This document shows, piece by piece, positions 2,993-17,061 of a DNA stretch of 31,400 bases. The translations under genes and the position numbers were made by a program. Position 1 is the first letter of the stretch, and the number at the start of each line of letters is the position of its first letter. The notes beneath the pieces were generated by a model, which was not told the origin of the DNA, did not search any database, and saw only the letters and a program-made list of their open reading frames with translations. Where the stretch lies: positions 1 to 31,400 of the IMG/VR virus record IMGVR_UViG_3300017746_004916, one strand, 5' to 3'. The DNA comes from a virus.

Positions 2993-3418
2993 ATGGCAAC
3001 AGTTGATACAGTAAAAACTGCACTAGTCAACAAACTTGAAACTTCTATTACTTCTGCAAGCCCGGAGCAGCTAGCTTATATTGCTAAGGCAGTAAATTCT
3101 ATTGAGCCTCCAATCGCTTGGTCAAGTAAAGATAGTGACTTTTCAGGTGACAACTATGCAGGATATTTCGTTAACACTACAAATGGAGAAGTAAAAATCA
3201 CTCTTCCGAATGTAGGTGGTAACACAGTAGGCGACGGTAGAATTAATATCGTTGATGTAAAACAGAACTTTCAAACAAATAACCTTGTTATTGCTGGATA
3301 TGGCACAGACAAAATCCTAGGTCAAGACAGTGATATTCTTGTGGATACTATGGGTATTGGTTTGCAACTAGTATGGTCAGGCGACACAAATGGCTGGCAG
3401 TTCTTGGTGCAGGGCTAA
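2993..3418 (+). CDS. Small tail-fibre-associated beta-rich protein
   Basis: 141 aa with no signal peptide. The second half (YAGYFVNTTNGEVKITLPN, then NNLVIAGYGTDKILG and a terminal W-rich strand) matches the pattern of a small beta-structured domain found repeatedly in tail fibres and structural proteins of marine T4-like phages, from memory of that family. A good Shine-Dalgarno (AGAGGAA) precedes the ATG. It sits between the large fibre gene and the Cys-rich family, so it is probably a fibre tip, adaptor or fibre-bound subunit. Two Asp-Ser-Asp motifs are present (KDSD, QDSD). The function is inferred from position and pattern only. Confidence 0.6.
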   Translation: MATVDTVKTALVNKLETSITSASPEQLAYIAKAVNSIEPPIAWSSKDSDFSGDNYAGYFVNTTNGEVKITLPNVGGNTVGDGRINIVDVKQNFQTNNLVIAGYGTDKILGQDSDILVDTMGIGLQLVWSGDTNGWQFLVQG

Positions 3419-3451: not shown

Positions 3452-4366
3452 ATGGCAAAATACTTATCACAGAAAATTAGAGCTGGCGCTCCAGATATTA
3501 CTAAATGGGACGGCTGGTGCTCTTGGACTTTTGTGCCGAATAATATCAATACTTATGATAATTCGCCATGCGAGTACTTAAGACATAGAACACATTGGTG
3601 TGTTCCAGCTGGAATCACTTGTGCCTTTATAGAAATATGGGGCGGCGGTGGAGAAGGTGCAGGAGGATGTTGTTGTTCTGTATCTACACCATCTGGTGCA
3701 GGAGCTTACGCTTATAAAACAGTAAAAGTTATGGAAGGCGACTGTTACTTTGTTCACGCAGGGTGGCAGTTTTGTTGTAGATCTTCAGCAGGAGGAAATA
3801 TTACAGCAGGACCAAGAACGGCTGATAGAAAAACTTATGTAATTGGCCCAGGTCTTACTAACTTCTGTGCTGAAGTTGGATATCCGGGAATGTCAGTATG
3901 TTGTCCTAGACAATATCTAGATTCTTCAGATTCAGCAACTAGATTTAGAGCTAAATCTTTTCAACCGGGCGATTCAGGTTGTGCAAGATACTATGGTGGA
4001 GACGGCGGTGCAGTTGGTCTTCCAGGGATGATGCAATTACCTTCATATGATTCAGCAGCAGATTCTGCAAGATCAGTGACATTTGGTAATCAGCCTAAGA
4101 CATGGAAAGCACTTGTTCCTTACCCAGGCGGCTGGTTTGATTGTAAAGGTGGTCATATTGTAGTAAGATATTGTGGAACACAAGCAGCAGGATTAGGTGG
4201 TCAAGAACTTTCTAACAAAACTGGTGAGGCAATGGGCCGAAGTTGTACATGTCATCCACATTATATCGAATCAGGGTTTGGTGTTATGGGAGGTTGGACA
4301 ACAGCAGATGCAATTTGTTGTGGTGCTCCTTCAAGACCAGGGCGTGTAAGAATCACATATCGTTAA
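3452..4366 (+). CDS. Gly/Cys-rich putative adhesin, paralog 1 (type A)
   Basis: 304 aa with 20 cysteines. The N-terminus starts MAKYLSQKIRAGAP. A central block (IEIWGGGGEGAGGCCC, then GAGAYAYKTVKV and GPGLTNFCAE) and a C-terminal block (CCGAPSRPGRVRITYR) are shared with three following genes. Closest in the window is the protein at 6767-7684, which shares AYAYKT and GPGLTNFCAE. No signal peptide or membrane segment is seen. Glycine-rich blocks recall the polyglycine-helix adhesin tips (gp38 type) of T-even phages, but no homology to gp38 can be claimed. The fibre-gene neighbourhood suggests a receptor-binding or fibre-tip protein. The Cys content is remarkable for a protein assembled in the cytoplasm. 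Several DS motifs occur at residues about 157-210. Confidence 0.6.
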   Translation: MAKYLSQKIRAGAPDITKWDGWCSWTFVPNNINTYDNSPCEYLRHRTHWCVPAGITCAFIEIWGGGGEGAGGCCCSVSTPSGAGAYAYKTVKVMEGDCYFVHAGWQFCCRSSAGGNITAGPRTADRKTYVIGPGLTNFCAEVGYPGMSVCCPRQYLDSSDSATRFRAKSFQPGDSGCARYYGGDGGAVGLPGMMQLPSYDSAADSARSVTFGNQPKTWKALVPYPGGWFDCKGGHIVVRYCGTQAAGLGGQELSNKTGEAMGRSCTCHPHYIESGFGVMGGWTTADAICCGAPSRPGRVRITYR

Positions 4367-4383
4367 ACGTTAGGTAGGCTTAA

Positions 4384-5541
4384 ATGGCAAAAAATTTACG
4401 AAAATTCGCTCCGGGCTATTCGGATGTTACGCCAGCCGATGACGTTTGCGAACTTATATTTTTAGAAAATAGACAAAACAGTCAAACTGAGCAAAGCGCA
4501 ATTTACGGCGCTCAGTGTGGAAGATGGTGTGTTCACGCTGGCGCTGGTACAGTACCAAGAAATGACTCTGATTGGGCTAGGCCTAAAACACTAATGTGGG
4601 ACATATTTGCTCCTGGGTCTGGTGGCTGGGGTGGTTGTTGCTGTATGGGTGGAACATTAGGTGGTGGTGGACTTCATCTTCGAGAACGTCATTGCGCAAT
4701 CCCAGGCGATACATATTGTATGGTAATTGGATCCGCTGGATGTTGTATGCCATCATCGCGAGACAGAGGTTGTAATAGTTGTGTAAGATCAGCCGCAACA
4801 TGTTGTCATTCGTTTGTATCAGCAGGTCACTGTGGTTGGGGTGCTTGTTATTTTGATTACTGCTGTTATGATTGTTCAAATGGATCTCCAAATACTGCAA
4901 GAGACAAATACGGAATAAGTTTGGCTTTTAAAACGACAGCAAAAGCTCATTGTAGTTGTTATAGCTTAGGTGGTTATTCAACACAAACAGGTTGTGCTTG
5001 GGCAAGTGGTCAAAATATTGGTAGAGAACCTTGGTCAGCATCAAGACAATATTGTGGTGGTAAAAACTGTATTCCAAAAACTGATAAAAAAGGATTAGCT
5101 CCTTACCCAGGCGGCGGTGTTACATCAGGTTGTAAAATGTGGGAATTTGGTGACAACTGTATGGCCTCTGGCGAATGTCTTAAGAGAATGAAAAACGAAG
5201 TTCATAAATTTGGTATGTCTTTTGATATTAATGAATGTTATAATGGATGTGCAGTTTGGTCATGTGGAACTAAGAAATTTGCTAGAGTACAATATAACGA
5301 TCCTTTACATCATACATCAGGTGCAGCATATATTAATTACACTCAAGTTAACACTAATGCATGGGGTGGATGGAATTGGAGTGCGTGGATGCATTGTAAA
5401 TTAGGTGCAGGTGGAAAAAACAATTGTCAGCAAAACTTAAGAACTATTGGAATGCCGGGTGCACCAGCACAAGTTTGTGGTGGCGGTTGTTGCTGTGGTG
5501 GACAAGGCGCTAACGGTGCCATTATACTTAGATATAGATAG
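4384..5541 (+). CDS. Gly/Cys-rich putative adhesin, paralog 2 (type B)
   Basis: 385 aa with 36 cysteines (about 9%). It begins MAKNLRKFAPG, has NDSDWARPK near residue 60, GGWGGCCCMGG near 80, an aromatic Cys cluster (CYFDYCCYDC) near 155, and ends GGGCCCGGQGANGAIILRYR. It is the near twin of the next gene, sharing the N-terminus, QCGRWC/SCGRWC, the NDSDW motif and the CCCGG end. No catalytic motif was recognised. It is probably a virion surface or fibre-tip protein from its context. The start is ATG at 4384, only 17 nt after the previous stop, with a weak Shine-Dalgarno (TAGG). Confidence 0.6.
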   Translation: MAKNLRKFAPGYSDVTPADDVCELIFLENRQNSQTEQSAIYGAQCGRWCVHAGAGTVPRNDSDWARPKTLMWDIFAPGSGGWGGCCCMGGTLGGGGLHLRERHCAIPGDTYCMVIGSAGCCMPSSRDRGCNSCVRSAATCCHSFVSAGHCGWGACYFDYCCYDCSNGSPNTARDKYGISLAFKTTAKAHCSCYSLGGYSTQTGCAWASGQNIGREPWSASRQYCGGKNCIPKTDKKGLAPYPGGGVTSGCKMWEFGDNCMASGECLKRMKNEVHKFGMSFDINECYNGCAVWSCGTKKFARVQYNDPLHHTSGAAYINYTQVNTNAWGGWNWSAWMHCKLGAGGKNNCQQNLRTIGMPGAPAQVCGGGCCCGGQGANGAIILRYR

Positions 5542-5549
5542 GATATAGA

Positions 5550-6755
5550 ATGGCAAAAAATCTTAGAAAATTCGCTCCCGGCTTAAGTGATCAATTACCA
5601 AAAAATCATGATTATTGTGAATTTATTGTTCTAGATGCTAGAGTAAATGATGCAAGTAATAGTCGATCAGTGATCTACGGGAACTCATGTGGAAGATGGT
5701 GTGCACCAGCTGGGCAAGGAATGGTTCCTCGCAATGATTCAGATTGGGGTAGAGCTACAAATCTAAAATTACACGCGTGGTCAGCCGGTGGAGGTGGTGC
5801 TGGATCATGCTGTTGTATGTATGGTCACCCCGGCGGTGGCGGTTATTATATGCAGTCATGTAGAAAAATAAAAGAAGGCGAAACATATTGTTATGTCATG
5901 GGTCATGGCGGTTGCTGTTTTCCAGCATTAGGTGTAAGTGGTTGTTTCACATTAATTAGAGAAGCATCAAATTGTATAAGTAATTGTAACCAAGGCGGTT
6001 GGTGTGGTTATAGTAGTTGTTATTATGATTACTGTTGCTGGGATAGAACTGGCCAAGCTAGTGGTTGTCAAGCTGCATCCAATGCAGCAATGCCAAGAGC
6101 GTGTTATGATCCAATCGGTGCAACAGTACCATATAGATCGCATTGGATGGTTAAGAGTTCATGCGCATCTGGTTGGTTAAACTACATTCAGCCAACGTCT
6201 CTTCATGAGAAACAGTCTACTATGTTAGGCGGTCATGGTAGAAGACCATGGGATGCAGGAACTAATGTTACTAATAAAAACTCTATTCCGGGCGGAAACG
6301 ATAAAGCAAATGCTTATGAAAGACATCTACCTACAGTAGGACAAAGATACTGTCTTGCCGACAATTGTATGCACTCAGCTGAATGTTCAAATAAGCCTTA
6401 TACTCCAGCTGTTAGAGGTCATGGTTATGGTGGTCATGGTTACACGTCTATGAATTGCTTCACTGGTTGTGCAGCTTGGGTATGTGGAAATCATGATTGG
6501 ACTTGGGGTAATATGGATTATGACAGAACTTCAGGACCATCTTGGTTAAATACTCCACAACAAAATGCAAATATGACATGTGGTGGATGGAATTCAAGTC
6601 GCTGGTTATTGTGTATGTTAGGTGGTAACAACAATTTATGTTGGACAAATATTAGAACAGTCGGATATGGCGGTCAAGCCGCTAGAGTCTGTGCCGGACC
6701 ATGCTGTTGTGGCGGTTGGGGAATGCACGGATATATTAATTTTCAATACAGGTAA
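5550..6755 (+). CDS. Gly/Cys-rich putative adhesin, paralog 3 (type B)
   Basis: 401 aa with 33 cysteines. Same architecture as the preceding gene: MAKNLRKFAPG, CGRWC, RNDSDWGR, GGGGAGSCCCMYG, YYDYCCWD, and the terminal PCCCGGWGMHGYINFQYR. The middle (residues about 190-300) differs strongly from paralog 2, while both ends and the Cys frame are kept. That is what one expects of a duplicated receptor-binding protein with a variable centre. Only 8 nt separate it from the upstream gene, so they are probably co-translated. No enzyme signature was seen. Confidence 0.6.
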   Translation: MAKNLRKFAPGLSDQLPKNHDYCEFIVLDARVNDASNSRSVIYGNSCGRWCAPAGQGMVPRNDSDWGRATNLKLHAWSAGGGGAGSCCCMYGHPGGGGYYMQSCRKIKEGETYCYVMGHGGCCFPALGVSGCFTLIREASNCISNCNQGGWCGYSSCYYDYCCWDRTGQASGCQAASNAAMPRACYDPIGATVPYRSHWMVKSSCASGWLNYIQPTSLHEKQSTMLGGHGRRPWDAGTNVTNKNSIPGGNDKANAYERHLPTVGQRYCLADNCMHSAECSNKPYTPAVRGHGYGGHGYTSMNCFTGCAAWVCGNHDWTWGNMDYDRTSGPSWLNTPQQNANMTCGGWNSSRWLLCMLGGNNNLCWTNIRTVGYGGQAARVCAGPCCCGGWGMHGYINFQYR

Positions 6756-6766
6756 AGGTATAAAAA

Positions 6767-7684
6767 ATGGCTAAAAAATTATCGACTATCCTGCCAGTGA
6801 CGGATATGGCATCCGGCCGATTTAAGGGTCAAAGCATATTCTGGAAACCTGGTGTTGAGGGATATGAATCAGGTCTAACTATGAGAGCAGCCGAAATTGG
6901 TGCTGGTGTTCATAGTTGGAAAGTTCCAAGCGGTGCAAGTCTTGCTACATTCGAAGTCTGGGGAGGAGGCGGAGGCGGCGCAGCTGCTTTCTGTTGTCAA
7001 CAAGGAATCCCTGGTGGTTCAGGAGCATACGCTTATAAAACTATTAAAGTTACTCCCGGAAACTGTTATGTATTTTGTACTGACATACAAGTACACTGTT
7101 GTAATAATGGTCCTCAAGATGCTAGAGTCTATGGTAAAAGAGGTGGAACAACATCGATTACTGGCCCAGGTCTTACTAACTTCTGTGCTGAAGGTGGTAA
7201 CCCAGGCGTAACATGTTGTTGGTTCTTTGAAGCATATAGACATAATGAATATATGTACATGTGTGATCTTTTAGGAAGACAAATCGAAGATTCTGATTCA
7301 GATGTTATGAGAAGAGCTAGATTCTTTGGTACAAATACTGGAGCACGAGGAAACGTAGGATTTGTACAAACGGGTTGTTGTGGTTCTGCTTGGACAGCAG
7401 CAAACTTCTGTGGAATGAAAACTGCAACTCCTTTCCCTGGTGGCTTAGCTATGTGGGGTAGAAGTGGTAAAGGTGGTGTGAACCATAAAGGTCTTAACTA
7501 TTATTGCCAATGTTATATGGATATTCACGATGGTGCCTCAGGTAGAGCGGCGCACTCAGTTATTGGAGCGTCTTGGCATTCTAGGGTCCCAGGTGAAGGT
7601 GGATTATCAGCGGCGACTATGGCAGGTCCTTGTTGTTGTGGAGGCCAAGGTGCTTTTGGTGCCGTAAGAGTTAATTGGGAGTAA
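6767..7684 (+). CDS. Gly/Cys-rich putative adhesin, paralog 4 (type A)
   Basis: 305 aa with 18 cysteines. It shares with paralog 1 the central GGGGGGAAAFCC, GAYAYKTIKV and GPGLTNFCAE blocks, and with the whole family the AGPCCCGGQGAFGAVRV ending. The four genes are thus arranged type A-B-B-A. IEDSDSDVM lies in a probable surface loop. It is followed after 3 nt by the possible chaperone gene. The role is inferred as fibre tip or decoration; the Cys-triplet blocks could be disulphide- or metal-stabilised, which cannot be decided from sequence. Confidence 0.6.
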   Translation: MAKKLSTILPVTDMASGRFKGQSIFWKPGVEGYESGLTMRAAEIGAGVHSWKVPSGASLATFEVWGGGGGGAAAFCCQQGIPGGSGAYAYKTIKVTPGNCYVFCTDIQVHCCNNGPQDARVYGKRGGTTSITGPGLTNFCAEGGNPGVTCCWFFEAYRHNEYMYMCDLLGRQIEDSDSDVMRRARFFGTNTGARGNVGFVQTGCCGSAWTAANFCGMKTATPFPGGLAMWGRSGKGGVNHKGLNYYCQCYMDIHDGASGRAAHSVIGASWHSRVPGEGGLSAATMAGPCCCGGQGAFGAVRVNWE

Positions 7685-7687
7685 AAA

Positions 7688-8380
7688 ATGGAAAAAATTA
7701 CAAAAACTTTTAAGTACGCACTTCCTGATGAATATACAGGACAAACTAGTACTCAAAAATTAGAAGGCACTTGGACATATAAAGGCCCAAGATATCTAAA
7801 CTTAGAACTTTCAAACTCTGGTATTAATACAGCAGTTCCTTTGACGAGCTGGGAAGACTTTATGAATCTAACCGAAGATAATGAAACTGATGAAGAAAAT
7901 ATTCTTCTTGATTGCATAGATTCAGAACATGCTTTACTTGCTACAATATTTTATGGAAATAAAGATTCTGACCTTAGTGACTCAGACGTGTTTCCACATT
8001 TAGCAGTAACTTTACCAAATGGTCAGGTTTATAAACGACCTAATCCTACTGCGCCAGATCATACATATGACGCACAAAGAATGAAGTGGGATCGCGCAAA
8101 TGAAACATTTAAAAAGCCATACCCTTGGTTTAAACCATTTATAAACTGGGAAAGTCAGGATATTGCAATAGCTAATGAAAGAATTTTATATGAAGAAACA
8201 AAAGCTAAATCTAGTTGGAATGATCTAAGTGCAGATGAAAAAGCTGCCTGGGATACATGGGATTCTGATCTAGGTTCTATTTCGGCTAGAATGAAAGCAC
8301 AAGGACTAAGATCATATCAATATGTACCAACACCATGGCCGGGAATGCCAGCTGCGTATGTAGAAGACTCTGACGGCTAA
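7688..8380 (+). CDS. Possible tail-fibre assembly chaperone-like protein
   Basis: 230 aa, acidic. The last 70 residues (WNDLSADEKAAWDTW, then YVPTPWPGMP) resemble the 'LSxEEKAAWxxYRxxLRDLP...WP' tail typical of phage tail-fibre assembly chaperones; I see this as a pattern, not a proven homology. The N-terminal half (TWTYKGPRYLNLEL, VFPHLAVTLPNG) looks beta-rich and may bind or form part of a fibre. Its position immediately after the four adhesin-like genes fits a chaperone or last fibre component. Five Asp-Ser motifs, four of them Asp-Ser-Asp, occur in a small protein, including the C-terminal EDSDG. Confidence 0.45.
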   Translation: MEKITKTFKYALPDEYTGQTSTQKLEGTWTYKGPRYLNLELSNSGINTAVPLTSWEDFMNLTEDNETDEENILLDCIDSEHALLATIFYGNKDSDLSDSDVFPHLAVTLPNGQVYKRPNPTAPDHTYDAQRMKWDRANETFKKPYPWFKPFINWESQDIAIANERILYEETKAKSSWNDLSADEKAAWDTWDSDLGSISARMKAQGLRSYQYVPTPWPGMPAAYVEDSDG

Positions 8381-8461: not shown

Positions 8462-9418
8462 GTGGAAAAAAGAAACACGGCGTTTTTCGTCAATGGCGGA
8501 GCTGGTAGAGTACTTAGCTCCGTCCCTGCTTTTGAAAGATATGAAGAAGAAAATCCTACAGATGATTTTATTATTGTCTGTGAAGGTGGTATGGAAATGT
8601 TTGCAGGACATCCTACTCTACATGCTAGATGCTTTGACAACTGGCATAAAGGTTTATTTAAAGACAAAATTAAAGATCGTAACTGTGTAAGTCTTGAGCC
8701 TTATAGAGTATGGGAATATTATAATCAAAAAGCAAATTTAAGTCAAGCTTTCGATATTGAAATGTCTGGTAAAGGCGTTAGAGATATGAAACCTCCTAGA
8801 GTGCATTTGGCTTCAGGTGAAGTTGCTGAAGGCCGCGCTATGGTTAAAGAAGTAAAAGAGCACACAGCTAAACAAAGAGTTGTTGTATTTCAGCCTTATG
8901 GAAGAAGTACTCAGCCAATTGGTGATAATTTAGTTGACTCTGGTGGAAGAAGCTTTCATCCAGATGATGTAGTTAAAATTGTTAAAAAATTGCAAGCAAA
9001 ATATGGCGTTATTGTTATGTCAGAATTTCCTGCAGACTTTCAAGCAATGGGTTGTCCTGATAAAGTAGCTCAACCTGAAAATGCTCCACTAAGAATGTGG
9101 TCATCAATTATTCAAGCAGCTGATGTATTTTTAGGATGTGATAGTGTAGGACAACATATGGCATATGCATTAGAAACACCAGCGGTTGTTTGTGTAGGCG
9201 CAACTTATCCAGAAAATGTTAGTTATCAAGACAACAATAAATTTCAAGTATTAGATGTTGCTCCTGATAGACGCATGTATGATCCAATTAGAATCTCAAT
9301 GGAAGATGAAATAGGAAGGCAAAACGACGGAATCATGAAATTAGATGATAAAGCAATAAGTGAAATTATTAAAGAGATTGATAAAAAGATTGCTACAGCT
9401 AATGGGAGAACTTCATAA
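8462..9418 (+). CDS. GT9-like glycosyltransferase (heptosyltransferase type)
   Basis: 318 aa, GTG start chosen because GAGGTG lies 5 nt upstream. The C-terminal half has the GT-B/GT9 pattern of ADP-heptose:LPS heptosyltransferases: VVVFQPYGRS near residue 140 for the donor-binding loop, then ADVFLGCDSVGQHMAYAL around 220-236 and TPAVVCVGATYPENV. Family knowledge says such enzymes move heptose from ADP-heptose to LPS core or, in some relatives, to protein. Here four ADP-heptose biosynthesis genes lie 3-8 kb away, which supports heptose as donor (inference). It overlaps the carbamoyltransferase gene by 1 nt (TAATG), so the two are translationally coupled. The acceptor is unknown: host LPS, virion protein or DNA are all possible. 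Confidence 0.7.
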   Translation: MEKRNTAFFVNGGAGRVLSSVPAFERYEEENPTDDFIIVCEGGMEMFAGHPTLHARCFDNWHKGLFKDKIKDRNCVSLEPYRVWEYYNQKANLSQAFDIEMSGKGVRDMKPPRVHLASGEVAEGRAMVKEVKEHTAKQRVVVFQPYGRSTQPIGDNLVDSGGRSFHPDDVVKIVKKLQAKYGVIVMSEFPADFQAMGCPDKVAQPENAPLRMWSSIIQAADVFLGCDSVGQHMAYALETPAVVCVGATYPENVSYQDNNKFQVLDVAPDRRMYDPIRISMEDEIGRQNDGIMKLDDKAISEIIKEIDKKIATANGRTS

Positions 9419-11229
9419 TGAGTGATTTGTGGATTGCAGGAATTTCAAGAGGACATAACGGAGCAGTTTGTTTACTTAAGAATGGAGAAATCGTTTTCTC
9501 TATTGAAGAAGAAAGATTAAGTCGCCGTAAATATGATGGTGCACCTTTAGCTGCTTTTTTGAAAATCAGAGAATATACTGAAAAACTAGATTATCTAGTG
9601 TTAGTGCATACTCAAGGTTTAGAAGTTGGAGGAAAATTAGAATTCTCTGGTGATGATGTTTATTCTGGAATAGCAAGAAAATTAGGAATGATTGAAGATC
9701 GTCAATGCACTGCAGATGAGCATCCTCAAGTTGTAGAGATTAGTGATCAACATCATAAGATGCATGCAGCAGCTGCGTTTTATAGATCACCATTTACAAG
9801 CGCGAGTGTAGTTGTTGCTGATGGTGCTGGTTCTAGTTTACCATATCAAGACGGAGTTACTGGAAGACCTACAGCTATTTGGGAATATGAAAGTATTTTC
9901 GAAGCAGCTTATCCTGCTATCTTTAAAACTAGATATAAACACGTAGGCACAGCAGATACTATTATGCCGCATTATTCTAAAGAAGTTGATGCTGAATTTT
10001 TAGGTGAACCGGGAAATCTAATTGAAGTTATGACTGACGATAGATGTGGAATTACTAAAGTCTATGAAGCTATTACTACATTTTTACAGTGGCAGCCAAT
10101 TGAAGCTGGAAAAACAATGGGGCTATTTCCTTATGGAGTAGAAAGTAATCTACCACCATTCTTTGATGAGCATGCACCAGCTCCTGGGTCATTTAATAGA
10201 AATCTGTTTATGCCAAATACTCCAAATGGAGCATTCTTAAATGTAAATTATTATGAGCAATTTGCTACAACACCAGAAGATTTTGAATCTGTTGGTGGAG
10301 ATATTACTAAATTATCAATTGCAAGAGACATTGCATATAAATGTCAAAAAGAAACACAGGCAGAATTAATTAAACTTATTCGTAAAGCTGTAGATAAAAC
10401 AGGAAACACTAATGTCATTGTGACAGGCGGATTTGGTTTAAACTGTGTTGCTAACTATGAGTACTTAGATGTCTTAAAGGATGAAGGTATTACTCTTTAT
10501 GTAGAACCTATTTCTAATGATGCAGGTACAGCAATTGGAGGCGCATTATATCATCACTATATGATGACTAATGATGATGAAGTTAGAGATTATGGTGCAA
10601 CATTATATCTTGGTCCAGAACAAGACTGGAATGAAGATGATGTAGAAGCTGTAATGGATGAGAATATGGAACTAACTGATGCAACATATGAAGATATTGT
10701 TGATTTGTTAGTCGATAAAAATATCGTTACTATCTTTCAAGGACGTTCAGAAAACGGCCCGAGAGCATTAGGTAATAGATCAATCTTATTTGATCCAACC
10801 TTTGAAGATGGTAAGGACTACGTGAATAGTGTGAAGAATCGAGAATATTTCCGGCCGTTTGCTGGAACAATTCTGGAAGAAGACGTACATAATTGGTTCG
10901 ATCTTCGTGGTATGGACAAATCACCTCACATGATGTATGCCGTAAATTGCCAACCCGGAGTTGAAGAAAAGATTCCAAGTATTATTCACGTAGACGGTTC
11001 ATGTAGAATTCAAACTGTAAGTAAAGAAGAAAATCTTCATTATCATAATTTGATTTCTGCATTTAAGAATAGAAAAGATGTTCCTATTCTATTTAATACT
11101 AGTTTTAATTTAGGTGGAGATCCATTAGTTGAAACTATTGCAGATGCTGTTGACACATTGAAACGATGTGATATTCAATATCTGTATCTTCCTGAAATCG
11201 AAAAACTATTAAAGGTACCAAACTCATGA
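9418..11229 (+). CDS. Carbamoyltransferase, NodU/CmcH/TobZ family, two-domain
   Basis: 603 aa, normal length for the family. The N-terminal Kae1-like domain begins WIAGISRGHNGAVCL with EEERLSRRK, has the metal/substrate histidines in DQHHKMHAAAAFY near residue 115, and VTGGFGLN and PISNDAGTAIGGALY near 335-380. The C-terminal YrdC-like domain has GRSENGPRALGNRS from residue 442, the family's hallmark. These enzymes make carbamoyl-adenylate from carbamoyl phosphate and ATP and transfer the carbamoyl group to a sugar hydroxyl. The gene is coupled to the upstream glycosyltransferase (1-nt overlap) and the downstream 2OG oxygenase (ATGA overlap). A sugar-decorating operon is therefore likely; the substrate is not known. 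Confidence 0.9.
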   Translation: MSDLWIAGISRGHNGAVCLLKNGEIVFSIEEERLSRRKYDGAPLAAFLKIREYTEKLDYLVLVHTQGLEVGGKLEFSGDDVYSGIARKLGMIEDRQCTADEHPQVVEISDQHHKMHAAAAFYRSPFTSASVVVADGAGSSLPYQDGVTGRPTAIWEYESIFEAAYPAIFKTRYKHVGTADTIMPHYSKEVDAEFLGEPGNLIEVMTDDRCGITKVYEAITTFLQWQPIEAGKTMGLFPYGVESNLPPFFDEHAPAPGSFNRNLFMPNTPNGAFLNVNYYEQFATTPEDFESVGGDITKLSIARDIAYKCQKETQAELIKLIRKAVDKTGNTNVIVTGGFGLNCVANYEYLDVLKDEGITLYVEPISNDAGTAIGGALYHHYMMTNDDEVRDYGATLYLGPEQDWNEDDVEAVMDENMELTDATYEDIVDLLVDKNIVTIFQGRSENGPRALGNRSILFDPTFEDGKDYVNSVKNREYFRPFAGTILEEDVHNWFDLRGMDKSPHMMYAVNCQPGVEEKIPSIIHVDGSCRIQTVSKEENLHYHNLISAFKNRKDVPILFNTSFNLGGDPLVETIADAVDTLKRCDIQYLYLPEIEKLLKVPNS

Positions 11230-11822
11230 TATGGCTAACAAACCCACAACCAGTAAATACATACTGGGAAAAAGCAAGAAATAAACTTTCTGAAGAAAGT
11301 CAACAAATTCTAACTGATTATGTTGAAGCTAATAAAGATCAATTAATGGCTGGTGAAACTAAATCAGAAGATGACGATGGAGCTAAAGATCTACTAACAC
11401 GCAATAGTAAAATTATGTGGATTGAAAATAATGAAGCCACTGGACAACTTTATTGGGAAATCGGTCAAATGATTATCGCACTAAATAATGATAAGTGGAA
11501 TTTTAATATTGATATGCTTGAAAGTCTGCAATATGCAGAATACGAAGAAGGCGGTCATTACGCTCAGCATTCTGATGATAGTATGGTATGTGATGCAGGA
11601 GAAAACGTTAGAAAACTTTCTTTCAGTATTCTTATAAGTGAACATGATGATTTTGAGGGTGGTGCTTTAGATCTAAGTATGTTTGCACCTGAATGGGATG
11701 GAAATATTGAGCAAGGTGAAATGATTTCATTTCCATCAATGATGCCACATATAGTTCAACCTGTAACTAAAGGTAAAAGAAAAGTGTTGGTTGGCTGGGC
11801 AAGAGGACCTCGTTGGGTCTAA
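11226..11822 (+). CDS. 2OG-Fe(II) oxygenase (prolyl-4-hydroxylase/PKHD-like)
   Basis: 198 aa. The jelly-roll signature is complete: iron ligands His115-x-Asp117 (YAQHSDDS) and His175 (MMPHIVQPV), with Arg185 (KGKRKVLVGW) to bind 2-oxoglutarate. DFEGGALDL and ISFPS motifs match the PKHD-type hydroxylases common in marine T4-like phages. It would hydroxylate an unknown substrate (protein side chain, sugar or nucleobase) using O2 and 2-oxoglutarate. Its start overlaps the carbamoyltransferase stop (ATGA), so the two are co-expressed. It meets the GmhB-like gene head-on with a 4-nt overlap and no terminator between them. Confidence 0.85.
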   Translation: MIWLTNPQPVNTYWEKARNKLSEESQQILTDYVEANKDQLMAGETKSEDDDGAKDLLTRNSKIMWIENNEATGQLYWEIGQMIIALNNDKWNFNIDMLESLQYAEYEEGGHYAQHSDDSMVCDAGENVRKLSFSILISEHDDFEGGALDLSMFAPEWDGNIEQGEMISFPSMMPHIVQPVTKGKRKVLVGWARGPRWV

Positions 11823-12469
11823 AATAAAGTATCAGCGAAATCTAAAAATGTGTCGTATACTAATGTTCTGTTCTTTAATGCTTTGTTTGCAAAGCTGTCT
11901 AATTTCGAAAGATCTGATACTTCAGAACGTACCAGAACAGGCAACAGTCCGGCTTTCATGGCCATTTTAGCGTCCATTACTTGGTCGCCAATATAATAAC
12001 CATTTTTATACGGCACATTAAATTCGTCACGTAATCTTCTAAACATTCCTACTTTAGGTTTACCAAACATATCTGATTTGTGATTTGATTCATTATATAA
12101 AATACCGTCAATGCTAGGGCAATTATATTGTCCTAGTAATTCAATAACATAATTGTTTATATCATCTACCTGTGCATGCGTAACTAATCCAGCACTAATC
12201 CCAGGTTGGTCATGAATCATAGCAATTTTAAATCCTCTATGTCTAAGCTTTGCTACAGCAATGAAAGATTCTTTTATTGGTCTTGCTGATTCACGTGAAA
12301 GAATAGGATTACCATCAGTTTCAAACATAACACCATCTCGATCAAATGCTACTAGAGGTCTAGGATATTTTGCGTTTAGTTGTTCTCTATTAAGTTGGAA
12401 ATCTTCATTTACTTTTTCACCATTAGGATTCGATGTTGTTGGTTGATCACCCCACATATTATAAGTCAT
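11819..12469 (-). CDS. gmhB: HAD phosphatase, GmhB-like (D,D-heptose 1,7-bisphosphate phosphatase)
   Basis: 216 aa. HAD motif I is FDRDG (Asp43, Asp45), motif II is in IHDQPGISAG (cf. TNQSGIxRG of GmhB), then Lys137-Pro138, and motif IV is GDQVMD (Asp162, Asp166). In the ADP-heptose pathway this enzyme removes the 7-phosphate from heptose-1,7-bisphosphate. It differs from textbook GmhB: an N-terminal polar extension of about 36 residues, and only one Cys where the zinc loop usually has three or four. Histidinol-phosphatase or another HAD sugar phosphatase is the alternative. It is the last gene of a left-going operon, overlapping hldD by 11 nt, and that context favours the heptose role. Confidence 0.65.
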   Translation of the reverse strand: MTYNMWGDQPTTSNPNGEKVNEDFQLNREQLNAKYPRPLVAFDRDGVMFETDGNPILSRESARPIKESFIAVAKLRHRGFKIAMIHDQPGISAGLVTHAQVDDINNYVIELLGQYNCPSIDGILYNESNHKSDMFGKPKVGMFRRLRDEFNVPYKNGYYIGDQVMDAKMAMKAGLLPVLVRSEVSDLSKLDSFANKALKNRTLVYDTFLDFADTLF

Positions 12470-13274
12470 TGTTAATATAATCCTCTACTTTAGTAAACTC
12501 ATAATGGCCACAAGTACTTAATAGCTTGTCTGTATTTGCACATGTATACTTTTGATATTGGCTTTTTAGATTATCAGGCATCTTAATGTATTTTACTTCT
12601 TTCTCATATTTATCTGCAATAGCTAATCCAATTGTTTCAAAACTAACAGCACGGCCTGTTCCAATATTATAGATTCCTGATATTTTTCGATTCATCATTC
12701 TTTCATGTATTTCACAAATATCATTTACACAAATAAAGTCTCTATAATATAGATGTGAGTCTTCGAATAAAGAAATAGTTTTTTGTTTTTTAAATTTAGT
12801 TACAGGAGATGCTTGGTTTCCTTTATGATCTTCATAATCTCCATAAACATTAAAATATCTAAAACCTTGAATTTGTTGTTTATGGATAATAGTATTAACG
12901 TGCCTGTCTAAATAATATTTAGACCAAGCATAGCCGTTCATAGGAGATTTTTTAGCACCTTCTTTGAAATCTTCTGGAGTTTCTCCAATACCATACACAC
13001 TGGCAGAAGAAGCATACTGGATTGGAATATTATGCTCAGCACAACGCTCAAACAGTTTAACCGAAAACTTATAATTTTTTTCGTATAATAAATCTGCATT
13101 AGTTTCAGTAGTAGATGATATTGCACCTAGATGTATACAATAATCTATTCCATCCCAATCTAATCCCCAATCAAAAGGCGTATCTCTTTTAACGATATCA
13201 TGACCAAGAGATTCAAAATGTTTTATCATATTTTTACCGATAAATCCTTTAGATCCGGTTATTAGTAACTTCAT
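12459..13274 (-). CDS. hldD: ADP-L-glycero-D-manno-heptose 6-epimerase (HldD/RfaD-like)
   Basis: 271 aa (about 310 in E. coli). An extended SDR: Rossmann GSKGFIG at residues 7-13, HLGAISSTTE at 48-57, Tyr115-x3-Lys119, then GFRYFNVYG, DFICVNDICE and SGIYNIGTGRA. The SSTTE, GFRYFNVYGD.E.HKG and NIGTGRA.SF strings match HldD specifically as I remember it, rather than GalE or RmlB. It converts ADP-D-glycero- to ADP-L-glycero-manno-heptose using NADP. The gene overlaps the kinase gene by 26 nt and gmhB by 11 nt, so the three form one translational unit. Confidence 0.85.
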   Translation of the reverse strand: MKLLITGSKGFIGKNMIKHFESLGHDIVKRDTPFDWGLDWDGIDYCIHLGAISSTTETNADLLYEKNYKFSVKLFERCAEHNIPIQYASSASVYGIGETPEDFKEGAKKSPMNGYAWSKYYLDRHVNTIIHKQQIQGFRYFNVYGDYEDHKGNQASPVTKFKKQKTISLFEDSHLYYRDFICVNDICEIHERMMNRKISGIYNIGTGRAVSFETIGLAIADKYEKEVKYIKMPDNLKSQYQKYTCANTDKLLSTCGHYEFTKVEDYINNDL

Positions 13275-14127
13275 TAATTGCCTCCGCTAGTTTGTTAGGG
13301 TTTATTGAGTATGTTCCAATATGTTTAACTGCTTCACCTGACATTATATTTGCTATAATAACAGATTTAAATATTTCAATATTCATATCGCAACATATTG
13401 CTAATGTTGCTGTAAAAGTATCACCTGCACCTGTAACATCAAAAACTTCAGTTTCAACAGCTGGATAATGTTCAATAACATCTCCAACGTATAATACTCC
13501 TTCAGATCCTAATGTAACCATAAAGTGTTCAATATCTAAGTCGTCTCTAACTCTTCTAGCGTGTACTAAAAGTTGTTTTGCTGTAAGGTTTTCTTCGCCA
13601 ATATATTCTTCAAATTCTTTTCTATTTGGCTTTAGAATATAAGCACCTTTATATTCAACCAAAGGTTTCTTAGGATCTACAATACATCTCTTACTTTTTT
13701 CAATAATGTTTTTAGCATACTTGATTGTTCCTTTATTATAATCAGATAATACAACAATGTCCATATCATTAAATATTTTAAAATTATCTTCTATCTCTTG
13801 ACTTTCAATAAATTCTTCAACATCAACTCGAGATAACATAAAATTATCACTCAACACACGAACTTTGTGTGGCATTATTTTTGTTTTTACTATATTTCCA
13901 TGTGCATTTATTTTCTTTAATATATAATAATGTATATCATCACAGTAACCATGTAATGAAACTTTATTAGTTGCTGCTCTGATATTCATATAAGTATTAC
14001 CAGCGCCTCCTAAAGATATCTTTTTCTTTTTTAAATTGACAATTGGAATCGGCGCTTCAGGTGATAATCTTGTCGATGTACCATACCAATATTCGTCGAT
14101 TATGATGTCGCCTATAACATGAATCAT
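13249..14127 (-). CDS. hldE1: HldE kinase domain as stand-alone gene (heptose-7-phosphate 1-kinase)
   Basis: 292 aa, equal to the N-terminal PfkB/ribokinase half of bifunctional HldE (RfaE1). Motifs: VIGDIIIDEYWYG and LSPEAPIPIV at the start, LGGAGNTYMNI, VLSDYNKGTI, LKPNRKEFEEYIG, and the catalytic DVTGAGDTF with GAGD at 233-236. It phosphorylates D-glycero-D-manno-heptose-7-phosphate at C1. The nucleotidyltransferase half is a separate gene 2.5 kb away, upstream on the same strand. A Shine-Dalgarno GGAG precedes the ATG. The divergent gap to the heme oxygenase start is only 22 nt, so there is almost no room for a normal promoter. Confidence 0.88.
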   Translation of the reverse strand: MIHVIGDIIIDEYWYGTSTRLSPEAPIPIVNLKKKKISLGGAGNTYMNIRAATNKVSLHGYCDDIHYYILKKINAHGNIVKTKIMPHKVRVLSDNFMLSRVDVEEFIESQEIEDNFKIFNDMDIVVLSDYNKGTIKYAKNIIEKSKRCIVDPKKPLVEYKGAYILKPNRKEFEEYIGEENLTAKQLLVHARRVRDDLDIEHFMVTLGSEGVLYVGDVIEHYPAVETEVFDVTGAGDTFTATLAICCDMNIEIFKSVIIANIMSGEAVKHIGTYSINPNKLAEAINEVTNNRI

Positions 14128-14144
14128 TAACTACTCCATGAGGT

Positions 14145-14152
14145 TATTTATG
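14145..14152 (-). promoter_or_regulatory. Possible late-promoter-like box (CATAAATA) for the heptose genes
   Basis: Read on the minus strand this is CATAAATA, one mismatch to TATAAATA, 17 nt upstream of the HldE-kinase start and overlapping the heme oxygenase start codon. The leader would be very short. It is listed because it is the only candidate promoter in the 22-nt divergent gap. Confidence 0.25.
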
Positions 14153-14770
14153 GCATTACGTGAATTACTAAAAGACATCCACACTGAAGCAGAGGAAGAA
14201 GAGTTTGCCAAACTCCTAATGTCAGGTGAGATGAATCCCGCATTATACGGGTTATATTTGAATCAACAATTTCATATATATTCGGCTTTAGAAAATAGAG
14301 CATATAAGTTTCCTTTTTATCAGAAAAAATTGAGAAAAATGGGAAGAATGATGGCTCTTGAAATTGATAGGAATGGGTATTACTATCCTAAAGTACTTTT
14401 GCCAACTACTAAAAAATATATTAAGTATTGTGAAACGTTGGATAAAGACCAAGTGATTGCACATTTGTATGTTAGACACTTTGGTGATATGTATGGTGGA
14501 CAAATGATTAAAAAGAAAATTCCAGCTTGTAATGGAGAAAACGTTGCTATGCACAGCGATGGGATTTATTATGAATTTGAAGATGCTGGTAAACATATAC
14601 AATATGTAAGAACTTTGCTTGAAGATAATATGTATGAAGAATGTAAAGTAGTTTTCCAATATGCAATCGATCTATTTAAGGAACTAATGGCCTATGATAT
14701 TCCCTCAACTTATCTCGACTTCTGCCCACCTGTCAGCGATATTAGAAGAATCGACAGAGACAGTAACTAG
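14150..14770 (+). CDS. ho1: Heme oxygenase (biliverdin-forming)
   Basis: 206 aa from the ATG at 14150, preferred to the ATG at 14138 because GAGG lies 6 nt before it. The proximal heme ligand is His11 in DIHTEAEEEEF (cf. HTxAE of heme oxygenases). The distal helix motif is YVRHFGDMYGGQM at residues 107-119 (cf. RYLGDLSGGQ). It would cleave heme to biliverdin IXa, CO and iron with reduced ferredoxin. The downstream bilin reductase gene overlaps its 3' end by 77 nt, a pairing known from cyanophages and uncultured marine phages. It points right while all its flanking heptose and carbamoyl genes point left, as an inserted cassette would. Confidence 0.88.
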   Translation: MALRELLKDIHTEAEEEEFAKLLMSGEMNPALYGLYLNQQFHIYSALENRAYKFPFYQKKLRKMGRMMALEIDRNGYYYPKVLLPTTKKYIKYCETLDKDQVIAHLYVRHFGDMYGGQMIKKKIPACNGENVAMHSDGIYYEFEDAGKHIQYVRTLLEDNMYEECKVVFQYAIDLFKELMAYDIPSTYLDFCPPVSDIRRIDRDSN

Positions 14771-15395
14771 ACATAAATTTCCATGGCCTGCATTATCTTA
14801 CGGGCCGTGTGAAAAATTTAGAAGAGCTGATTTAGATATAATAGACGCCAGAGAAAAGAAAAATCTCTGGATGCTACATTTAGTTGTTTACCCTCATTTC
14901 TATGATGGTGCTCCTATTTACGGATTTGATATAATAGCTGGTCCTAAGAAAGTCACTGGAGCTTTTCATGACTTTTCTCCTATGGACCATAATAGTAGTA
15001 TTATAACACAGTTTGGAAAGAATGTAAAGGACTTTATTCCAAAAAAACAAAGAGAATTACCAGAATGGGCAAAAAATATATTTAGTCCTTACATGATTGC
15101 TGCAGGTAATGTAAAAATAGGACAAGAACTAGATGACTTATTAGATTTAGCAGTTTCTAATTTAGAAATGCATATAAACTCTATTGGGATATCTAGAGAT
15201 AAAGCATGGGTAGACGAAAATTATTACGCTAAAAATCAGTCATGGTATGTTTATAATCAAAGACAAAATCCTCATACAGCTCGTGTGATGGAATCATTAG
15301 GTATTGAAAAAGATCAAGTAAGGAAATATATCGATGAAGCATTATGGCCGCTTGAAGAAGCTTGGCAAGATAGCAAGCCTGTTCTTTCTGATTAA
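14694..15395 (+). CDS. pcyX: Ferredoxin-dependent bilin reductase (PcyX/PebS-like)
   Basis: 233 aa, the size of phage PebS/PcyX. FDBR landmarks: FPWPALSYGP at 29-38, PIYGFDIIAG at 74-83, GAFHDFSPMD with His92-Asp93 at the proton-donor position, LPEWAKNIFS and the C-terminal NQRQNPHTARVMES. It reduces biliverdin to a phycobilin; whether the product is phycoerythrobilin or phycocyanobilin cannot be read with certainty. The PcyX family was described from uncultured marine phages thought to infect heterotrophic alphaproteobacteria. The LPEW and Q-RQN-TRRVLE-like patterns lean to the PcyA/PcyX side. The ATG at 14694 has AAGGA 11 nt upstream, inside ho1. The pcyX symbol is tentative; pebS is the alternative. 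Confidence 0.82.
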   Translation: MIFPQLISTSAHLSAILEESTETVTRHKFPWPALSYGPCEKFRRADLDIIDAREKKNLWMLHLVVYPHFYDGAPIYGFDIIAGPKKVTGAFHDFSPMDHNSSIITQFGKNVKDFIPKKQRELPEWAKNIFSPYMIAAGNVKIGQELDDLLDLAVSNLEMHINSIGISRDKAWVDENYYAKNQSWYVYNQRQNPHTARVMESLGIEKDQVRKYIDEALWPLEEAWQDSKPVLSD

Positions 15396-15399
15396 AGGA

Positions 15400-16329
15400 T
15401 TAATTTGGCTTATTGTTTTTTATTTTGGAGTGGAGATAATAAAGTACAGCTCCGGATGAAGAACCACCATCTCCGGGATTAAGCGGCACATATAAATCCC
15501 GCCAAGGAAATTCTTTAGTTATTCTATTTCTAACACCTTGGTTAAACGCGCATCCTCCTGTTAAAATAAAATTAGTAAAATTGCCTGACCAATGTTTAAA
15601 GATTTTTATAATTAGATCTTCGAAAACAATTTGCGTTGCATATGCAATGTCTTCAGGCGAATATTTTTTAAACTTATCTCCTATACCTCTATGAAAATTT
15701 TCAGTAAACATTGGTGCCCATGGATGAGCAATAATCATTCTTTCCACATCTCTTAAACAATTTTTAGTTGATAACTTAAGTGGTCCTGTTTTTGTTTTTA
15801 TTGAATTTGCCAGTTCTTCAAATTTCTTTTCTTCTTTATTAGGAATAAATCCAGCTGCTTTTGTCATAGCGCTATAAAATAAACCTAAACTATCTGGGTA
15901 ATTCACTTTGCCTATCATCTTCATTTTTAATCCATAAGCAGCCCAAACCGTTGTACAATTAAATTCACCAATAGAATCAATTGATACAATAATTGCTTTA
16001 TCAAATCCACTGTTATAATATGCAGCAGCATGACTTGCATGGTGTGGGACATAATCCCATTTATAATTAAGATCTAGTTCTTTTAATATTTTTGAAACAT
16101 TATTACGACTTATAAAGTTAGATTGACCAGCCATCATTTGTCTTAATCCTTTTAAATAAGGATTCTCATACCATATAATTTTATCAGGTTTAGCTACAGC
16201 TTTACACAAATTTATCATATCTTCATCATGATATTTTTTATCTGAATTAATTGAATATAATTTGTTTGCATCATCATACACTGAGATTGACGCATCATGG
16301 CCGTGACCAGACATTCCCCAATAAATCAT
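15400..16329 (-). CDS. Carbamoyltransferase-like, N-terminal (Kae1-like) domain only
   Basis: 309 aa against about 600 for the family. It has the N-domain marks: MSGHGHDASISV, PHHASHAAAYYNSGF (His96, His97, His100), ILTGGCAFNQGVRN and VPLNPGDGGSSSGAVLYY. The reading frame stops just after that last block. The YrdC-like C-domain, which in TobZ forms carbamoyl-adenylate, is absent and there is no remnant: the next gene (pcyX) converges 4 nt away. Either it borrows carbamoyl-adenylate from the full-length enzyme at 9418-11229, or it has another activity. It overlaps the cupin gene by 4 nt (ATGA) and has a good Shine-Dalgarno (AAAGGTGA). Confidence 0.8.
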   Translation of the reverse strand: MIYWGMSGHGHDASISVYDDANKLYSINSDKKYHDEDMINLCKAVAKPDKIIWYENPYLKGLRQMMAGQSNFISRNNVSKILKELDLNYKWDYVPHHASHAAAYYNSGFDKAIIVSIDSIGEFNCTTVWAAYGLKMKMIGKVNYPDSLGLFYSAMTKAAGFIPNKEEKKFEELANSIKTKTGPLKLSTKNCLRDVERMIIAHPWAPMFTENFHRGIGDKFKKYSPEDIAYATQIVFEDLIIKIFKHWSGNFTNFILTGGCAFNQGVRNRITKEFPWRDLYVPLNPGDGGSSSGAVLYYLHSKIKNNKPN

Positions 16330-16685
16330 TTTTGACTATCACCTTTCATAATTCTATAATTATCTTCTACAGAATCTGGAGTTGATACTTCTACTAATAT
16401 ACCAGCTTTTTTACAAAAGACTTGATGAGGTTCACACGGATCATTATGATAGACATCACCTTCTTTTAATACAGTTCTTTGTACTTCAGCATTCTCTGTC
16501 ATAATTTTTGTAACTAAGAATTCACCATTTAAGCATAACCAAGTTTCCATTTTTTCTTTATGAAAATGCATTGAAAACTTAGAACCTTCTTTAAAAGATA
16601 ATAGTTTACCACAATACTTATCATTTGTAGCAAAGATAAGCTCGTGACCCCAGCCTTTCTCTACAAAGCCTTTAAGTTTTGTCAT
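16326..16685 (-). CDS. Small cupin protein (sugar isomerase/epimerase-like)
   Basis: 119 aa single cupin. It starts with KGWGHELIFATNDKYCGK, like the C-terminal half of type II phosphomannose isomerases and capsule-gene cupins. It then has the metal-binding MHFHKEKMETW motif (residues about 39-49) and a second strand motif GDVYHNDPCEPHQVF. It is a likely metal-binding sugar or sugar-phosphate modifying protein. It lies between the HldE nucleotidyltransferase domain (14-nt overlap) and the short carbamoyltransferase (4-nt overlap), so it is probably part of the same glycan pathway. The true substrate is unknown; a regulator or binding role is possible. Confidence 0.7.
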   Translation of the reverse strand: MTKLKGFVEKGWGHELIFATNDKYCGKLLSFKEGSKFSMHFHKEKMETWLCLNGEFLVTKIMTENAEVQRTVLKEGDVYHNDPCEPHQVFCKKAGILVEVSTPDSVEDNYRIMKGDSQK

Positions 16686-17061
16686 TAATCCACTCCAAAA
16701 TTTTTGTAGAAGATTGATCTGGCACTGTTTCGAAAATCTTAATTAGTGCTAATCCATTACCTACAACCCAACTTGGTTCATAGTCTCCGCCTTTAGTAAT
16801 CATCCACGGTCTCACTTTTTTGATTAACTCTAAAGGAGTATCCTCTTCAAATATAATAACTTCATCAACATACCTAATTGCTTCTAGTACAATCTTTCTA
16901 TCTTTTTCGTTATGAAAGGATTCTCTTTTTATTCTTTTCATACTTTCATCAGAATTAAGACCAACTACAAGCTTATCTCCTAGTTCACGAGATTTTTTTA
17001 GATAATCTATATGACCAGGGTGTATGATGTCAAAACATCCATTAGTAAAAATTACGTTCAA
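16672..17061 (-). CDS. hldE2: HldE nucleotidyltransferase domain as stand-alone gene (ADP-heptose synthase)
   Basis: 129 aa, equal to the C-terminal half of HldE (RfaE2). Nucleotidyltransferase signature: VIFTNGCFDIIHPGHIDYL with His14-x-x-His17, then VGLNSDESMKRIK, DTPLELIKKVRPWMITKGGDY, and the closing SSTKILEWI. It joins heptose-1-phosphate to ATP to give ADP-heptose. The start is TTG, preceded by GGAG at good distance. It is the first gene of the left-going block, separated from its partner kinase gene by the cupin, the short carbamoyltransferase and the bilin cassette. Confidence 0.87.
   Translation of the reverse strand: MNVIFTNGCFDIIHPGHIDYLKKSRELGDKLVVGLNSDESMKRIKRESFHNEKDRKIVLEAIRYVDEVIIFEEDTPLELIKKVRPWMITKGGDYEPSWVVGNGLALIKIFETVPDQSSTKILEWINDKT

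Follow-up and report, generated by a model that had tools for sequence, protein, structure and literature searches.

Four consecutive genes in a marine phage fragment of 31.4 kb (IMG/VR record IMGVR_UViG_3300017746_004916, positions 1-31,400; hereafter, the window) encode cysteine- and glycine-rich proteins that are supported, as predictions, as tail-tip adhesins, and such genes are linked nearly one-to-one with the gene for a glycosyltransferase (GT). In the window, which carries T4-like tail genes, the four genes have a tail-fibre gene on one side and a sugar-modification cassette on the other, and the GT (8462-9418, + strand) is encoded by the second gene past the last of them. Across other phages, the linkage extends to Cys-rich tail proteins of several folds. 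We judge the chances to be evenly balanced that this GT transfers a sugar, most likely from ADP-heptose, onto the Cys-loaded tail-tip adhesins, the acceptors most likely being the Cys thiols (S-glycosylation).

Four tandem Cys- and Gly-rich genes

A sequence-only reading of the window had drawn attention to four tandem genes with 20, 36, 33 and 18 cysteines in products of 304-401 residues, and this count is confirmed. The genes, all on the + strand, are A (3452-4366; 304 amino acids, 20 Cys), B1 (4384-5541; 385 amino acids, 36 Cys), B2 (5550-6755; 401 amino acids, 33 Cys) and A' (6767-7684; 305 amino acids, 18 Cys). Their Cys content amounts to 6.6, 9.4, 8.2 and 5.9%, respectively, with 14-18% Gly, while the remaining 29 predicted genes of the window range from 0 to 3.4% Cys and the predicted structural ones among them mostly from 0 to 1%. 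As a matter of degree, it is correct to call such Cys content exceptional in virion proteins, given that passages of the report on phage Milano deem a content of 2.1% in structural proteins remarkable (PMC10811340). Other elements of the same reading fared unevenly. CCC triplets beside Gly are indeed present, including at the C-terminus, but the other site lies in the first third of the proteins and not at their centre. The conserved ends and diverged centres are borne out by B1 and B2, which share 48-58% identity in their first 120 residues and 50-56% in their last 65, but 28-38% in the stretch between (42% overall). The proposed A-B-B-A pattern holds for the B pair, but the outer pair is merely 35% identical and the arrangement is better written A-B-B-A'.

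In 21 homologous pairs (20 between phages and one of paralogs within the window), Cys is the residue kept most often (1072 of 1258 positions, 0.85), followed by Gly at 0.81, with every other residue at or below 0.66; the C-C match score had been reduced to 5 in these alignments to guard against bias. Such conservation shows that the Cys richness of the four predicted proteins is not a product of chance. Neither is it unique to the window phage, because all 37 loci retrieved in a scan keyed on A and A' hold at least two Cys-rich genes of this type. The IMG/VR contig L010 presents the same A-B-B-A' order, with 76, 53, 53 and 76% identity to the window genes, while L001 and L009 present A-B-B-B-B-A', with four B genes against two in the window and L010. 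Six Cys-rich genes are found in each of L012 and L014, and most other loci contain three to six paralogs. Cyanophages S-CAM1, S-CAM3, P-SSM2, S-SSM7 and Sf-FS3 carry two or three such genes in the same place, annotated as hypothetical. The suggestion of a receptor-binding repertoire with swapping between types is supported in part: copy number varies, but order and orthology are kept between the window and L010, and swapping is not seen between them. In L004 and other deposited cyanophage genomes, the start annotated for a Cys-rich gene sometimes seems too far downstream, as in S-CAM1, where the annotated start is at 7962 and the frame is open from 7866.

The A' protein matches the Gly_rich_2 family (PF21722) with 34.5 bits, above the gathering cut-off of 24.3. 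Searched singly, A, B1 and B2 matched no Pfam family at E-values up to 1, and are tied to Gly_rich_2 only through alignments and phrog_4205, which is matched by A (E 1.2e-38) and B2 (E 2.6e-9); B1 has homologues in L010 and L009. Judged by E-value, PF21722 is matched by 23 of the 66 members of alignment A4 and by 5 of the 24 members of alignment A5. An AlphaFold model of A' computed from 66 homologues reached a predicted local distance difference test (pLDDT) score of 73.5 and a predicted template-modelling (pTM) score of 0.77. Among the solved structures listed, its best match is the fibre of cyanophage Pam3 (Foldseek E 2.8e-5; Z 15.9 and 3.6 Å over 196 aligned residues), with further matches to the Bxb1 tail tip (Z 12.2) and to the glycine-rich domains of the animal receptors ALK and LTK (Z 7.1-7.8). 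Because these are the best matches, A' is modelled as a TNF-like core with polyglycine, henceforth the TG fold. No PDB entry matched A', alignment A4 or alignment A5 in sequence searches; gp38-type polyglycine adhesins were not among the fold matches listed for A', a result that does not exclude kinship with gp38. The adhesin-like character proposed for these proteins is thus upheld for A' by predicted fold, PF21722 match and location behind a tail-fibre gene, and the structure prediction that had been recommended placed a phage tail fibre nearest to it. For the B proteins the model is poor (B1: pLDDT 49.6, pTM 0.61, a low confidence), and the assignment stands on homology to A. Taken together, fold prediction and sequence matches support the four genes as predicted tail-tip adhesins of Gly_rich_2/TG type.

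Linkage of the glycosyltransferase with Cys-rich tail proteins

Loci were scored as Cys+ when they contained an open reading frame (ORF) of at least 120 amino acids with at least 8% Cys in some 120-residue stretch. A scan keyed on the upstream tail fibre, and therefore blind to both GT and Cys, yielded 80 loci, distributed as 28 GT+Cys+, 0 GT+Cys-, 6 GT-Cys+ and 46 GT-Cys- (Fisher P = 4.6e-16, relatedness ignored). All six GT-Cys+ loci are contigs that end at most 1.4 kb past the last Cys-rich gene, short of the position of the GT, and a Cys-rich ORF is found in none of the 27 GT- loci in which the sequence runs on for 5 kb or more past the fibre. Scans keyed on the GT give, among the matches listed, 133 of 159 loci as Cys+, and 102 of 106 when at least 6.5 kb are available upstream. 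Conversely, 33 of the 37 loci keyed on A and A' have at least 2.6 kb downstream, and 31 of these carry the GT in the fetched stretch, the other two having it farther along the same record, frame-split in one. In the record of L044 (G002:C1:5470-6395), the GT is split over frames with the Cys-rich genes still there, which may reflect sequencing error or decay.

The distribution of the GT was assessed beyond these loci via a tblastn search of 50,697 phage records, 55 of which matched (23 marine T4-like or marine single-cell and 32 Vibrio or Aeromonas phages). A Cys-rich tail-region protein is present in all 11 of the neighbourhoods read (S-CAM1, S-CAM3, P-SSM2, S-SSM7, Sf-FS3, AG-345-F15, -P14 and -O18, HJ05, K479 and SBP1). 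This protein did not match the TG profile in P14, O18, HJ05, K479 and SBP1; it is encoded directly upstream of the GT in HJ05 and directly downstream in SBP1 and K479. Two IMG/VR scans returned at least 548 and at least 529 matched stretches encoding GT relatives, while a set of 84,980 bacterial and archaeal genomes, in which each species is represented once, returned 10 matches. The eight long ones are all on contigs of marine metagenome-assembled genomes and all accompanied by Cys-rich ORFs; the two partial ones are accompanied by no such ORF. Whole genomes follow the same rule. Both Mosig and P-SSM4 lack the GT, and none of their ORFs of at least 120 amino acids (138 in Mosig, 117 in P-SSM4) reaches 6% local Cys; in S-CAM1, which encodes the GT, the three most Cys-rich of 131 ORFs are the tip genes, with four weaker mechanical ORFs at 6.7-9.2% Cys.

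In GT- phages, the tips behind the fibre that match PF21722 contain 0-0.8% Cys in eight of eight cases, PF21722 being the only link of kinship between Cys-poor and Cys-rich tips; a ninth Gly-rich protein of these phages, at 1.7% Cys, has no PF21722 match. Besides TG proteins, the partners of the GT comprise fibres with an S74 chaperone, Phage_Tail_Tip proteins and unnamed proteins. Read by eye, the S74 fibres show a repeated NIAIG-type motif and the Phage_Tail_Tip proteins show ACxCGINCGN-type repeats. Cys is enriched 16-fold in the TG proteins and 15-fold in the other partners (10 of 10), and no other residue exceeds 2.5-fold, Met and Trp coming next at 1.6- to 2.5-fold. Because the PF21722 tips of GT- phages are Cys-poor and GT-linked proteins of other folds are Cys-rich, the Cys content of these predicted proteins follows the enzyme and not the fold.

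Candidate roles of the cysteines

The reading that we favour would have the adhesins made together with a dedicated phage GT that caps their Cys thiols with a sugar, probably by S-heptosylation. The phage's own kinase, adenylyltransferase, phosphatase and epimerase would supply ADP-heptose, and the sugar would in turn be decorated by the adjoining carbamoyltransferase. Once capped, the thiols could neither cross-link nor cause misfolding in the reducing cytoplasm, and on the virion the tip would face the host with a dense coat of sugar. Cys as the acceptor agrees with the absence of a bias towards even Cys numbers (even in 112 of 234 proteins, a set that mixes Cys-selected and GT-selected loci), the CC and CCC runs, and the persistence of so many thiols in the reducing environment of the cytoplasm. 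Two observations make ADP-heptose the likely donor: the faint relatives of the GT are heptosyltransferases, and a heptose kinase (HldE) gene lies near 14 of the 28 GT+ fibre loci, as opposed to 0 of the 52 GT- ones. The corresponding figures are 25 of 28 and 0 of 52 for the carbamoyltransferase, and 28 of 28 and 5 of 52 for the phrog_9740 gene that separates A' from the GT. Marine picocyanobacteria are not known to have heptose in their lipopolysaccharide (LPS) and Vibrio and Aeromonas have it, a difference that, if right, would explain why marine T4-like phages carry a heptose pathway. A broader version, in which tips of several unrelated folds evolve ladders of tens of Cys to which a dedicated GT9-like enzyme adds (carbamoylated) heptose, making hyper-S-glycosylated adhesins widespread and the ADP-heptose genes of many marine T4-like phages servants of the virion rather than of host LPS, we hold tentatively, at a little under even chances.

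Several results weigh against sugar-capped cysteines. The GT scores 15.7 bits with the GT9 family (PF01075; cut-off 22) and falls far under the cut-offs for RfaQ, heptosyltransferase III and TIGR04414; since it reaches no curated cut-off, any assignment of donor or acceptor is a guess. Two other genes, those for the carbamoyltransferase and the phrog_9740 protein, are linked with Cys-rich proteins almost as tightly as the GT within T4-like phages. The GT tree requires few switches between TG and other partners (parsimony 3), so that the loci outnumber the independent events. Four GT+ loci whose flanks are long (L091, L143, L156, which reaches 7.5%, and L207) are without a protein at 8% Cys, and a TG-profile search of their records came back empty. 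The context analysis found no sequon around Cys, Trp and Met show a mild enrichment too, and full capping of CCC runs would be hard. The proposed chemistry is, moreover, a prediction from sequence.

Alongside these points, L156 and L207 may put the GT to another use. A PDB sequence search with the GT returned no match, and its membership of the BAHT family (TIGR04414) was rejected (12.6 bits against a cut-off of 200). An excess of the Asp-Ser dipeptide was considered as a glycosylation sequon and dropped: it is seen in pelagiphage-like loci, chiefly within fibre genes, and is absent from the cyanophage loci examined, which have the same GT. In the window fibre (61-2937) the dipeptide occurs 26 times where 7.9 are expected, mostly as GATTCA or GATTCT, and the figures are 33 against 11.3, 16 against 7.6 and 16 against 5.9 for the fibres of L009, L012 and L014, respectively.

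Disulphide locking and metal binding, the uses initially suggested for the cysteines, are not supported: even Cys numbers are not favoured, and the tight link with the GT points to another role. In the former, intra- or inter-chain disulphides formed after lysis would stabilise the tip or bond it to the fibre, leaving the GT to glycosylate other residues of these proteins or of the fibre. The strong conservation of Cys and the fact that the closest fold is that of the Pam3 fibre would suit this explanation, as would the disulphide-linked fibres that passages of two reports describe for Pam3 (PMC10329688, PMC11821841) and the disulphide network that those on Milano describe for its virion (PMC10811340). 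The count of even-numbered proteins and the CC and CCC runs are at odds with it, however, and Cys richness occurs on several architectures only with the GT, which disulphides alone would not need; we consider it unlikely, although worth entertaining. Metal-binding tips, whose Cys ladders would bind Zn, Fe or Cu either to stiffen the structure or to lure metal-uptake receptors of the host, could account for the Cys density, the CC/CCC spacing and the His and Trp residues favoured after Cys in the context analysis. Most Cys positions are nonetheless not common to the paralogs as one conserved metal site would be, and the GT link is left unexplained, so that this proposal appears very improbable. 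Disulphide or metal use, alone or beside the sugar, is a possible role.

The GT and carbamoyltransferase could instead modify the host surface, in superinfection exclusion, and be merely co-inherited with an adhesin that binds that surface. Their genes adjoin those of the adhesins, and the usual interpretation of heptose and carbamoyl genes in phages is LPS modification. Yet the partners differ in kind and the phages are unrelated, sharing high Cys and little else, and the almost Cys-free PF21722 tips of GT-less phages would go unexplained, making this account improbable. Compositional drift or mis-called ORFs might draw on a slightly raised local GC content (0.40-0.44), but are already contradicted by the conservation of Cys and by the recurrence of the genes in the A-keyed loci and in isolates, which leaves this explanation next to no probability.

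If the GT does cap Cys, virus particles would bear dense S-linked protein glycosylation, and commonly so. The presence of ADP-heptose and carbamoyltransferase genes in some marine T4-like phages would then be explained, and the sugar coat would cover precisely the structure that contacts the host. Should the chemistry prove wrong, it is still odd that one enzyme is coupled, all or none, to how much Cys different tail proteins contain.

Gene context and known systems

Upstream of A, the window encodes a long tail-fibre-like protein (61-2937, +; phrog_9851 tail fiber protein, E 4.5e-148) whose 5' end is cut by the window edge and which has relatives in 55 phage records, followed by a 141-residue tail-associated protein (2993-3418, +) that matches tail and baseplate PHROGs and occupies the same position in L009 and L010. 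Behind A' lie a 230-residue protein (7688-8380, +), assigned to phrog_9740 by a PHROGs match and presumed accessory, with chaperone or attachment protein as candidate roles, and the GT, a GT-B/GT9-like protein annotated as a putative adhesin (S-)glycosyltransferase on account of weak GT9/heptosyltransferase profiles and its Cys linkage. The cassette continues with a NodU-type carbamoyltransferase (9418-11229, +; PF16861 191 bits, PF02543 75 bits) and a 2-oxoglutarate-Fe(II) oxygenase (11226-11822, +; PF13640, E 1e-12). On the opposite strand are a GmhB-like phosphatase of the haloacid dehalogenase type (11819-12469; NF006506, E 1e-21, under the equivalog cut-off), an HldD-like ADP-heptose 6-epimerase (12459-13274; TIGR02197, 233 bits, cut-off 274.6), a protein like the heptose-7-phosphate kinase of HldE domain I (13249-14127; TIGR02198, 224 bits, cut-off 345), a small cupin resembling sugar isomerases (16326-16685; PF07883, PF07385) and a protein like the heptose-1-phosphate adenylyltransferase of HldE domain II (16672-17061; TIGR02199, 137 bits, cut-off 181.5). 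A second protein at 15400-16329 (-) has the N-terminal carbamoyltransferase domain only.

A heme oxygenase and then a bilin reductase are encoded at 14138-15395. Among the matches listed, the latter is 44.8% identical to that of pelagiphage Mosig, as against 26-32% for cyanophage homologues, and Mosig carries both genes in the same place, ahead of the neck genes. The window enzyme is thus possibly PcyX-like rather than a cyanophage PcyA, and, because it is nearest to that of Mosig, the host is likely to be other than a cyanobacterium. The tail sheath shows about 45% identity, about equally, to phages of Pelagibacter, Methylophilales and others.

The combination of enzyme and adhesin was not found in the open-access literature, but its parts have counterparts. 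Dedicated heptosyltransferase genes lie beside the adhesins that they glycosylate in AAH/TibC with AIDA-I/TibA; BAHT, from whose profile the window GT is distant, acts on Ser. SunS-type glycocin S-glycosyltransferases attach an S-linked sugar to Cys, but belong to a GT family other than that of the window enzyme. Adhesins of the S16/T2 gp38 type have a Gly-rich (polyglycine) tip, and the glycine-rich TG domains of ALK and LTK combine a TNF-like core with polyglycine as A' does, although these are animal receptors and their Z scores are in the range of common arrangements. The tip of Mosig belongs to PF21722 and occupies the same locus behind the fibre as A', but differs in containing 0.8% Cys in a genome without a GT homologue, while the Bxb1 tail tip shares the fold of A'. 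So does the Pam3 tail fibre (7ypx, 7yfw), without a sequence match to A' and, to our knowledge, without a link to a GT. Cys is put to use in the Pam3 virion, whose fibres are, according to passages of two reports, disulphide-bonded to the baseplate (PMC10329688, PMC11821841). Milano offers the other precedent, its structural proteins forming a disulphide network in the virion as passages of its report describe (PMC10811340), with a Cys content far lower than that of the window adhesins and with sheath and baseplate involved besides the fibres.

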